Part shown: piece after piece, positions 4,719-7,092 of the stretch
Numbering within the stretch: the stretch's first letter is position 1
Layout: every line of letters begins with the position of its first letter
Source: Listeria ivanovii subsp. londoniensis
GTDB taxonomy: Bacteria > Bacillota > Bacilli > Lactobacillales > Listeriaceae
DNA: 64,000 nt
Assembly: GCF_000763495.1 (NCBI RefSeq)
Contig: NZ_CP009576.1
Location: 2,647,001-2,711,000, forward strand
Direction of reading: 5' to 3'
Program-made: the position numbers and the translations under genes
The notes under the pieces: model-generated
The model's input: only the letters and a program-made list of their open reading frames with translations
Database searches by the model: none
What the model was told of the DNA's origin: nothing

Positions 4719-5288
4719 TTACCAATCAAAAACCCATGCATAGGTTATCGACATTACTTCTCGCATCATCCCTTTATATTTTGCGATTGTCTTTGATTTT
4801 GCCGGAAGTCCTGTTGCATCAATGTTTTGACGTTTCGCAAGCATCAGCGCCCGATACATATGATAATCACTTGTAACAATCACTGTTTTCTCAAGCTGAA
4901 ATTTTTCTTTACTATTGCTAATATTTTCTTCCGTTCTTTTGGATTTAGTTTCCGTATCAATCCGTGCTCTTCGAATACCTTCATTAACTAAATATTCTTC
5001 CATAACTGATGCTTCTGTCTCGCTCTCATCTGTGCCCTGACCACCACTAACAATCACTCTAGCTTTTGGATGCTCATTTAAGTAATCTACAGCCGCATCG
5101 AGTCTCTCCTGTAAGACATGGGATGGTTGAGCCGGTTCGCCGATTACTTTTGCTCCTAGAATAAGAACCGTCTTGGCATTATCACTTGGTTTCGTCTGAG
5201 TTCCACTAAACATACATATTGCAACAATGAACAGATATAGCAGACTAATCACAATGAAAACAATGAAAATTTTTCTAAGTTGTGTCAT
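4719..5288 (-). CDS. YdcF/SanA-like DUF218 membrane protein
   Basis: 189 residues with an N-terminal membrane anchor (about 7-28) and an extracytoplasmic DUF218 domain. Visible family signatures are VLILGAKVIGEP, ERLDAAVDYLNEHPKARVIVSGGQG and TVIVTSDYHMYRALMLA. Relatives are implicated in envelope barrier function (SanA) and nucleotide or SAM binding (YdcF), and the reaction is unknown. GGGAGGA precedes the ATG. Its last bases overlap the promoter of the downstream WYL regulator. Confidence 0.8.
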   Translation of the reverse strand: MTQLRKIFIVFIVISLLYLFIVAICMFSGTQTKPSDNAKTVLILGAKVIGEPAQPSHVLQERLDAAVDYLNEHPKARVIVSGGQGTDESETEASVMEEYLVNEGIRRARIDTETKSKRTEENISNSKEKFQLEKTVIVTSDYHMYRALMLAKRQNIDATGLPAKSKTIAKYKGMMREVMSITYAWVFDW

Positions 5289-5467
5289 TTTATTCCTCCC
5301 TTAACTTCTTTCTAGTAAGTTTAACAAATACTTTTAAATAAAAGAGAAAGAAATAATCAAGTTATAGGAAATTCATCTTATTATAAAAATTCTCAAAATA
5401 AATACCCCAATAATTAACTGAGGTTTATCATTGATGCTATTTAAAACATATATTAACTAGCTTTAAT

Positions 5468-5529
5468 AAAAAAGGTTATGCATTGTGCAACAGTTTTATT
5501 AAACCATTACAGAATACATAACCTTTTTT
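5468..5529 (-). terminator. Large hairpin, probably the original ssrA terminator
   Basis: On the reverse strand AAAAAAGGTTATG...CATAACCTTTTTT forms a long stem with a T tract. It starts nine bases beyond the left 13-bp repeat, at the distance expected for the tmRNA terminator before the Abi_2 cassette inserted. The rest of the 5289-5538 gap shows no gene. Confidence 0.65.
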
Positions 5530-5538
5530 ATCTAGGTC

Positions 5539-5551
5539 AAAAGTGGAGATG
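5539..5551 (-). repeat. Left direct repeat (att-like), copy of the ssrA 3' end
   Basis: AAAAGTGGAGATG on the plus strand is identical to 6721-6733, which contains the last eight bases of tmRNA. The copies are 1182 bp apart and flank the Abi_2 gene. This is a typical product of site-specific integration at a tmRNA 3' end. Confidence 0.7.
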
Positions 5552-5587
5552 TTCAACTTTTAATTTTTAAAAATTAAATTACACTAT

Positions 5588-5616
5588 AAAAGGATGCTTA
5601 CAGTAAGCATCCTTTT
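5588..5616. terminator. Terminator of the Abi_2 gene
   Basis: AAAAGGATGCTTA - CAG - TAAGCATCCTTTT is a perfect 13-bp stem with a three-base loop, inside the repeat-bounded segment and downstream of the Abi_2 gene. Confidence 0.8.
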
Positions 5617-5696
5617 AGTACTGATAAACATTAAAACTGCGTACAGTTAGAATGCCAAGGTTTTAATCCTTGTTCCTTGTCTAAATACTATCAATA

Positions 5697-6605
5697 CTAA
5701 TATACTTTGTCAACTAATAAACGCAACGCTGAAAAAAATCTTTTAATATCATAGTTTTGTTTATAGAAGTTTTTGTTTTTGTCACATCTATTAACAAACT
5801 CTCTCAAAACTTCTCTTTTGTTATTTTGTATTCCCATACTACAGTATTTTTTATGCAAGAGAAAAACAGCAAATATGTCATGTATTCTTTTAACTCTAAG
5901 CTGATTATCGCTAAGATAGGAGTTATTTGCTTTTAAAAACATGTTATTAGTCTTTCCTTGTTTTATGTCTAAAATCAATGGACTACTATGCGCTGCTTTG
6001 TTTCTTATATTTTTTGCGAATTTTAAAAGTTCATTTGCCATTTTAAAATCTTCTTTATTGAAAAAAACATTAGCATAATAGTGCTCAGTGAACATTGTGA
6101 AACCACCATAGCTCATTAGCTCCAATGCCACCCATACAGGTGTTTCTTCGTAGTATTTTGTATATATTCTCGTATATGTTTGGACTCCTTCCTGATTAAA
6201 AAACATTTCCTTTTCAAAAAGACGCCTCTTTCTGTTGCTATCGGCTTTAAAAAATGAGTTTACTATACCATATCCATCCTCTGTTCTATCCAAAGTAATA
6301 TTTTTTAATATTTTAGTTTTAATAGAATGCTCAATATCCAGACACATTTGTAACAATATATATCTTAATCTCATATCCAATATGGCTAAATCAGATAAAT
6401 ATGCAAACTCTAAGTCCTTATATCTACCATTCTCATCTTGATCATAGTTTTTCCTATAGGAACCGAGTTTATAATAATAATTATTTTCCATCAAAATTTC
6501 CTTTGCTTCAGTTTCATTAATTATTTGAAATTTTATATTTTTCGCACGCATCTTTTCAATAAGTTCTTCATAAGTAAGCAATCTCTTTTTTTGTTTGTAT
6601 TTCAC
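5697..6605 (-). CDS. Abi_2 (AbiD/AbiF-like) abortive-infection protein
   Basis: 302 residues, beginning at GTG 6605 ([19 protein letters not shown]). The N-terminal part has [12 protein letters not shown] and [29 protein letters not shown], the hallmark of Abi_2/AbiD/AbiF proteins. Residues 201-206 are RNKAAH, the R-N-x-x-A-H HEPN-type motif of RNA-targeting defence nucleases. In lactococci such proteins abort phage infection. The gene is strongly AT-rich relative to its neighbours, sits alone between 13-bp repeats at the ssrA 3' end and has its own terminator, all signs of horizontal transfer. No partner toxin, antitoxin or integrase gene is visible. Confidence 0.85.
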
Positions 6606-6720
6606 TTATGCATCATCCCTTTTATATTGTGATAAAGATATTATAACACAAAACAAAAAAGTGCCACAAACGCCTCAACAAAGCATTTTAAAGCACTTTT
6701 CATCTTTTTTCATTCTTCTA

Positions 6721-6733
6721 AAAGTGGAGATGG
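6721..6733 (-). repeat. Right direct repeat (att-like), within the ssrA 3' end
   Basis: Same 13 bases as 5539-5551. It spans the tmRNA acceptor-stem 3' strand and five bases beyond. Confidence 0.7.
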
Positions 6734-7092
6734 TGGGAGTCGAACCCACGTCCAGAAATATCGGCACTTAAATATCTACGAGCGTAGTCACCGTATTAGT
6801 ATTTCGCATAAACCTCAGCCCGGCAACAGGCTTCCATTCAGCTAGTCTGATTAAGCTCTTCTAACTAACCCCAGACGGAGATTATTTAGTGTAGCCCACT
6901 TAAAGTGAGACCCTTACCGTAGCACATGGGCGATGCACGGAGGATCAGCTATGCTACTGCTTATTAGGCAGCGAAAGCTAGGTTTTGTTTTTCTTTGCCA
7001 GTTATTATTGGCTTTGACGTTAATAACGAGGACGATCCCCCCGACTCGCAACTCAAGCTCGAACTATCCCTGTCGAATCCGTAACATCCCCA
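6726..7092 (-). ncRNA. ssrA: Transfer-messenger RNA (tmRNA)
   Basis: On the reverse strand the 5' GGGGATG pairs with the 3' CATCTCC (one G-U pair), followed by discriminator A; CCA is not encoded. The TGG..TTCGACTCCCACC T-arm and the D-arm-like GATTCGACAGGGAT are present. The tag reading frame at 6967-6999 encodes GKEKQNLAFAA and ends TAATAA (6961-6966). tmRNA rescues stalled ribosomes with SmpB, whose gene is 10 kb away here rather than adjacent. Confidence 0.97.

Follow-up and report, generated by a model that had tools for sequence, protein, structure and literature searches.

A 1,181-bp stretch of DNA without an integrase gene is inserted at the 3′ end of the tmRNA gene, ssrA, of Listeria ivanovii subsp. 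londoniensis, within the 64-kb region that we analysed (the window). The insert contains an Abi_2-family gene, abi, and, on the 3′ side of that gene, a predicted small RNA that would probably keep the predicted RNA-cutting, anti-phage protein in check. We consider it likely that the cassette is the remnant, or a stripped form, of an ssrA element, similar to a cis-mobilizable element (CIME) and carrying a HEPN RNase together with a 3′-encoded antitoxin RNA.

Insertion at the 3′ end of ssrA

The insert is bounded by an exact 13-bp direct repeat, AAAAGTGGAGATG, with copies at 5539-5551 and 6720-6732, a spacing of 1,181 bp. The original prediction had the outer copy right and set the inner one at 6721-6733, one base off. 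With up to one mismatch allowed, these are the only two copies in the 64-kb window (shuffle mean 0.17). The whole 3.05-Mb genome has just three exact copies, two being the cassette repeats; given this genome count, by our arithmetic a copy arising by chance in the correct strand and no more than 2 kb away would be expected roughly once per 3,000 trials. Seven bases from the outer repeat, rather than the nine first proposed, lies a hairpin with 31-nt arms that are 84% complementary; over 61 nt it shares 75% identity with the terminator that follows ssrA in another Listeria genome (G024). In G013, the closest genome in this region, the native terminator hairpin directly follows ssrA: the ssrA end is joined directly to the outer repeat and the hairpin, forming an empty site, and the window flanks joined at 5538/6720 align to it at 391/411 with zero gaps. 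Given that G013 has this arrangement, we conclude that the hairpin is the terminator that ssrA had originally, now displaced by 1,181 bp, as had been suspected. Taken together, the repeats, the gap-free empty site and the displaced terminator indicate insertion at the ssrA 3′ end, and they support well the site-specific reading of the original prediction, along with the single-copy empty site that it anticipated.

We compared the region downstream of ssrA in 24 other Listeria genomes, one per species, with about 19 kb covered in 22 of them and 2.4 kb (G010) and 4.7 kb (G004) in the two where the contig ends. DUF218 and WYL genes lie downstream of ssrA, arranged as in the window, in 14 of the 24. 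The insert at ssrA is confined to 1/25 genomes examined, the window's own, and the Abi gene was not seen downstream of ssrA in the other 24 within the distances given; relatives or pieces of abi occur elsewhere in six of them. The gene is not, then, one that all Listeria share at this position without an empty site, the outcome that would have spoken against insertion. The further suggestion that other strains may carry other defence genes between the same two repeats was not borne out, since no other cargo was found there in any Listeria genome examined. The ssrA-side end of the insert (~66 bp) has look-alikes directly after ssrA in five relatives (G020, G011, G016, G017 and G019) and in three contigs labelled L. 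monocytogenes, in alignments that take in ~80 nt of ssrA itself; no second repeat of at least 11 bp accompanies it in the five relatives. Such insert-free ends may have been left behind by former elements, or they may represent a second kind of native terminator that recombination has spread. A search of viral contigs with a pattern for the ssrA-side end gave nine matches, none preceded by ssrA sequence.

Table 1. Features of the cassette and its flanks (window coordinates)
Feature	Position	Strand	Remarks
Flanking DUF218 gene	4719..5288	-	kept downstream of ssrA in 14 other Listeria genomes
Displaced native ssrA terminator	5466..5531	-	fold of 5462-5538: -33.9 kcal/mol, z -10.2
Outer (attR-like) copy of 13-bp repeat	5539..5551	.	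exact repeat; joined-flank alignment to G013
Outer end of insert	5552..5586	.	homology to G024 module starts at window 5578
Predicted small RNA, ~92 nt from inferred start	5587..5678	-	AAGGAAC leader, two hairpins, terminator
Small RNA terminator	5587-5617	-	
Small RNA hairpin 2	5628-5655	-	UNCG-type loop
Small RNA hairpin 1	5656-5672	-	
Predicted small-RNA promoter	5685..5713	-	TTGACA-17-TAGTAT; -35 within last abi codons
abi gene, 302 aa	5697..6605	-	GTG start; Abi_2/AbiD HEPN RNase; motif R201-N-K-A-A-H206
Predicted abi promoter	6640..6667	-	extended -10, TGTTATAAT; GTGGCA-16-TATAAT, TG before
ssrA-side end of insert with replacement ssrA terminator	6654..6719	-	hairpin ~6656-6701, -19.4 kcal/mol, z -4.2
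ssrA-side (attL-like) copy of 13-bp repeat	6720..6732	.	spans ssrA 3′ end
ssrA (tmRNA), target gene	6724..7091	-	intact, tag GKEKQNLAFAA; ARAGORN; Rfam RF00023 214.6 bits

The cassette has a G+C content of 28.3%, against 36.5% for the window, and abi is the sole ORF longer than 45 aa between the repeats, with no integrase or transfer genes, which agrees with the integrase-less, AT-rich Abi_2 cassette originally described. An integrase-bearing element is found at ssrA in another Listeria. G008 carries a ~20.1-kb element (L054, L120; G008:C15:241425-261558) between two copies of a 12-bp repeat, CGCCAGCTCCAT, with a tyrosine integrase gene adjoining ssrA (PF00589, E 4e-25), the native terminator beyond the distal repeat and a similar terminator immediately within the proximal one. 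The window's ssrA-side end is 78% identical to that of G008 over 153 nt, about half of which is ssrA. Because of this resemblance, the anatomy of the insert fits an ssrA-using element that brought its own terminator and was reduced to its ends and one module. The repeat core of the G008 element, CGCCAGCTCCAT, differs from CATCTCCACTTTT. Integrase genes adjoin ssrA in both G008 and G010, and a search of the window's genome with the G008 integrase (E ≤ 1e-30) gave one relative, 41% identical, at a different locus, which by eye belongs to a type I restriction (hsdS) system. By its anatomy the cassette can be classed with the reduced elements for which PMC5704250 uses the term CIME: like these, it retains attL- and attR-like sites, here the 13-bp repeats with their gap-free empty site, and is devoid of genes for integration or transfer. 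It differs in being just 1.18 kb long, with a single module, and its mobilization is presumed. By eye alone, the genes of the G008 element appear conjugative.

The abi gene and a predicted small RNA on its 3′ side

The abi product has the Abi_2 domain (PF07751, E 3.2e-24; 86.7 bits against a cut-off of 25.6), is assigned to AbiD by PADLOC (E 2.5e-24), and contains the HEPN motif RxxxxH as R201NKAAH206. The form R[ND]xxxH is kept in 40/40 near-full-length homologues, these being the 40 of 44 loci that passed a coverage and E-value filter, which four failed. The putative promoter element TGTTATAAT also precedes the copies of abi in G024 and G006. With the AbiF protein of phiC2, the window protein shares 21% identity over 214 residues. 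In a protein tree, a branch with support 100/99 splits the 31 proteins of the window's group from eight others, namely phiC2 AbiF, six plasmid AbiF-type proteins and Lactococcus lactis AbiD1. The last of these sits on an unreliable long branch; with 22% identity over 88 residues, we set AbiD1 (pIL105) aside as a validated reference. We likewise do not count a link to the solved PbAbiF structure (8vz6) as support: a profile that included C. difficile AbiF matched it with E 4.4e-12, which falls to 0.002, below three chance-like rows of repeat proteins, for the 30-protein profile of the window's group without that row, and the single window protein gave no match to 8vz6. Used directly as a query of genome contigs and viral contigs, the Abi protein led to nothing that could be confirmed.

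Conservation of the cassette does not end with the gene. The copies in G024 (85% identical, window 5578-6653) and G006 (73% identical, window 5588-6659) extend well beyond the abi stop codon, and what is conserved past the stop is an AAGGAAC leader, two hairpins (1 and 2), the second of which has GUACGC or GUUCGC as its loop, and finally a terminator. The structure that the original prediction took for the terminator of abi is read as the end of a separate predicted small RNA with its own predicted promoter, which overlaps the abi stop codon; the gene was correctly recognized, and the conserved RNA beside it was overlooked. The segment 5583-5678 folds with -30.2 kcal/mol (z -5.6; z -1.5 without the terminator). 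Among five Listeriaceae, eight of 15 base pairs show a compensatory change and 91.8% of cells pair, values reached in 0/500 shuffles. The structure was itself derived from these five sequences; when it is slid along them, 22.5-49.3% of cells pair. Taken singly, promoter matches in the cassette stretch are unremarkable (12, against 8.0 in shuffles). A predicted structured RNA is encoded beside a putative toxin gene as in type III toxin-antitoxin (TA) systems, on the 3′ and not the 5′ side. Against Rfam, neither the window RNA nor its genome (G000) matches RF02397 (sau-5971) above the gathering cut-off, and the weak matches that the window RNA does give, SIB_RNA among them, score far under the cut-off.

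The G006 copy (L061:9483-10559) has a related Abi gene that is split over two frames with a stop; its 3′ RNA is fully conserved, scoring 82.1 bits against the covariance model R1 described below, of which it is itself a source sequence. The G024 copy lies beside tRNA-Ser(CGA), and its two 11-bp matches to the tRNA end were unconvincing as marks of a tRNA-end insertion.

Related loci, AbiF and Sau-5971

We looked for the same arrangement at the window locus and 43 related loci, scoring a promoter if its -35 element begins no more than 40 nt upstream and no more than 114 nt downstream of the stop codon. A promoter was found in 33/44 loci (shuffle mean 3.18, maximum 7), with none in the remaining 11; for the window's own group, the count is 24 of 31 proteins, with none in seven. 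Some of the 44 loci are near-identical, such as L030/L031/L032, L079/L080 and L081/L097, and the 33 promoter-bearing loci represent 30 distinct RNA starts. Hairpin 1 follows 8-26 nt from the -10 element in 24 of these 30 RNAs (shuffle mean 2.58, maximum 7) and does not exceed the score in six; at any score, 25 stems were found, with 21 different sequences. In two loci the RNA stands apart from the gene, the -35 element beginning 13 nt (L102) and 106 nt (L105) after the start of the stop codon, which argues that the promoter is not a by-product of the protein C-terminus. R1, built from the five closest RNAs, misses those of more distant homologues. Of its four weak matches in the 44 source sequences, one sits where the RNA would be expected, in L091 (E 1.1). 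A scan of 395 genomes of the order recovered the five sequences used for training plus a single false match (G246), which lies inside a gnd-like gene with no Abi gene nearby. Since R1 misses the distant RNAs, the case for a wider RNA family is made by position, promoter and hairpin geometry. The streptococcal satellite phages Javan543, Javan317 and Javan218 similarly have a gap in the annotation, 230-289 bp long, after an Abi_2 gene, and it contains hairpins that by eye are RNA-like, but there the gene adjoins integrase and repressor genes, and the promoter script was positive in Javan218 alone of the three. Across the four such loci, from satellite phages and a plasmid (L095, L096, L098 and L099), the gap of 230-289 bp separates the Abi gene from an integrase gene, and the script was positive only in L098.

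The cassette invites comparison with AbiF and its RNAs. AbiFCd of C. difficile requires the corresponding R and H residues for toxicity and is neutralized by RCd22 through binding (PMC12373285), and AbiFr, an RNA of the sister clade, acts by binding the PbAbiF protein (PMC12373285, PMC12737573). With these type III TA-like pairs the cassette shares an Abi_2 HEPN protein with R[ND]xxxH and an adjoining small structured RNA. However, the window RNA is encoded on the 3′ side of the gene and has a predicted promoter to itself, whereas theirs lies 5′, in the leader; and the known abiF RNA, RF03085, is absent from the window locus, whose protein falls in the separate clade described above. RF03085 was not found in the window or in the 43 related loci at E-values of up to 1, 5 or 10. 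By comparison, it was recovered upstream of abiF in phiC2 (37.6 bits, cut-off 37) and in four of six AbiF-type plasmid loci (39.6, 36.5, 35.2 and 29.7 bits), two of these five matches being over the cut-off. Sub-threshold matches at G023:C115:13392-13428 (32.1 bits) and G007:C3:20177-20213 (29.4 bits) are perhaps true abiF RNAs. Among the open PMC papers listed for AbiF and its ncRNAs (titles and beginnings of abstracts), we found no 3′ RNA for the window's Abi_2 group. Abi_2/AbiF proteins have been proposed as ancestors of the Cas13 HEPN domains (PMC12165695, PMC12373285), and how an AbiF-type RNA partner became a guide is presented as an open question (PMC12737573); a clade with an unrelated-looking RNA on the opposite side of the gene is a natural comparison.

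A counterpart in the same slot is already catalogued in Staphylococcus. On the contig of locus L094, the abi frame ends at 2107 and is followed by an RNA (2121-2216) that is Rfam RF02397, sau-5971 (117.2 bits); the contig also has a fragment of an integrase upstream and, downstream, rpsR in the opposite orientation. RsaL/SAU-5971 is listed between rpsR and SA0355 as 'highly expressed' (PMC3386247, Table 1), and since the gene order matches, we infer that SA0355 is this Abi_2 gene. The same source describes the RNA as 'processed from large 3'UTR of SA0355' and not as an independent transcript, whereas Sau-5971 is listed as a bona fide sRNA validated by 'NB', which we take to mean Northern blot, in Table 1 of PMC5826253. 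The 3′ end of rpsR is an insertion site of staphylococcal islands (PMC11217367). Sau-5971/RsaL/srn_0880 occupies the same slot, right after the Abi_2 gene, and has, in matching order, an AGGAA leader, two hairpins and a terminator; it differs in that the window RNA does not match RF02397 in sequence. No function for it is given in the accessible parts of PMC3386247 and PMC5826253, and we found no link between sau-5971 and the Abi family or abortive infection in the open PMC literature; if our reading is true, a function can be proposed for an sRNA long catalogued in S. aureus. Across 398 genomes of the class, RF02397 gave sub-threshold matches in 38 genomes and no match that exceeded the cut-off. 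At the 20 such loci that we inspected, no relative of the 31 Abi proteins of the window's clade is encoded, and we therefore count these matches as chance.

Proposed mechanism and alternative readings

The best reading of these comparisons is that the cassette pairs an Abi_2 toxin with an RNA partner on its 3′ side, was left stranded at a site resembling an attachment site, and resembles AbiF/AbiFr in reversed order. An element integrating at the ssrA 3′ end would have lost its integrase and kept both ends. In growing cells, abundant small RNA would bind and silence the Abi_2/AbiD/F-family HEPN RNase, in the manner of RCd22 and AbiFr; a phage that upset the supply or stability of the RNA would free the RNase, which would cut cellular and phage RNA and so abort the infection. 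Addiction to the toxin-RNA pair would also keep the chromosome from losing the cassette once the integrase was gone. We propose this division of labour because the R and H residues are needed for toxicity in C. difficile and RCd22 neutralizes by binding. For the cassette itself we infer transcription in Listeria, dimer formation, binding, toxicity, neutralization, the phage trigger and mobilization. A broader proposal, to which we give slightly better than even chances, is that a large sister clade of AbiF uses a distinct class of 3′-encoded and independently transcribed partner RNAs, of which Rfam has a single Staphylococcus family; that Sau-5971/RsaL is the Staphylococcus member and serves as antitoxin to a chromosomal HEPN RNase; and that, once the integrase has decayed, such pairs persist as orphaned cassettes at attachment sites (ssrA in Listeria, rpsR in Staphylococcus). 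What becomes of defence modules that have lost their integrase could be tested at this single small locus, for which an empty site is known.

Other accounts of how the cassette arrived have to be weighed. It might be an active minimal element, the 1.18-kb cassette still being moved in trans by an integrase that an ssrA-targeting ICE or prophage supplies. The exact 13-bp ends and the clean empty site in G013 are compatible with this, as are the integrase-bearing ssrA element of G008, with its similar ssrA-side end, and the integrases beside ssrA in G008 and G010. However, the sole relative of the G008 integrase in the genome (at E ≤ 1e-30) is elsewhere, at the hsdS-type locus, no second genome has the same ends around this or other cargo, and the G008 core is not the same as CATCTCCACTTTT; we regard present-day mobility as unlikely. 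Alternatively, no site-specific recombinase took part, and the module was copied in with a new ssrA terminator by recombination between relatives, the repeat being microhomology. We doubt this too. The outer repeat is an exact copy of the ssrA 3′ end, and G008 attests an integrase-bearing element of that design within the genus, although it is true that G024 and G006 have the module alone (~5578-6653), at unrelated positions and lacking convincing repeats at its ends, that five relatives have the ssrA-side end but no insert, and that the ssrA-DUF218 distance ranges from 162 to 2019 bp in 15 genomes.

The role of the RNA also admits other accounts. That it is a mere 3′ UTR or terminator of the abi mRNA, without partner function, would accord with the description of RsaL/SAU-5971 as a processed 3′ UTR (PMC3386247), with the unremarkable single promoter matches and with the unexceptional fold of the window RNA once the terminator is removed (z -1.5). 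Promoters in three-quarters of the homologous loci (33/44, against 3.2 by chance), compensatory changes in the RNA pairs, and the separation of promoter and RNA from the gene in L102 and L105 argue against it, and we consider it quite improbable. The RNA could instead regulate the abi mRNA or another target, with L. lactis AbiD1, which is controlled via its mRNA leader (PMC2661086), as a precedent; but RCd22 and AbiFr, the RNAs of the sister clade, bind the protein (PMC12373285, PMC12737573), which makes a regulator of this kind improbable. Our preferred reading of the RNA remains that of an antitoxin to the HEPN RNase.

Several smaller observations were made along the way. The locus L131 of the window's genome (G000:C1:466000-480000) resembles a type I restriction locus with two opposed hsdS-like genes and tyrosine recombinases, by eye likely a phase-variable system. 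Three Listeria wastewater 'phage' contigs that end in ssrA (L066-L068) were rejected as host chromosome, 3.4-5.5 kb of them aligning to the window at ~74-78%; together with the Staphylococcus contig of L094 (OR850092.1), they are wastewater 'phage' contigs that carry host chromosome, from the Listeria ssrA region and rpsR, respectively. Small ORFs in the ssrA-DUF218 interval of the G022 group and of G016/G017/G019 (L036-L049) are unrelated to one another, and those of G022 and G016 gave no Pfam match over the cut-off and no PHROG. Their presence, in an interval that varies in length among 15 Listeria genomes, suggests that it is a small insertion hot spot.
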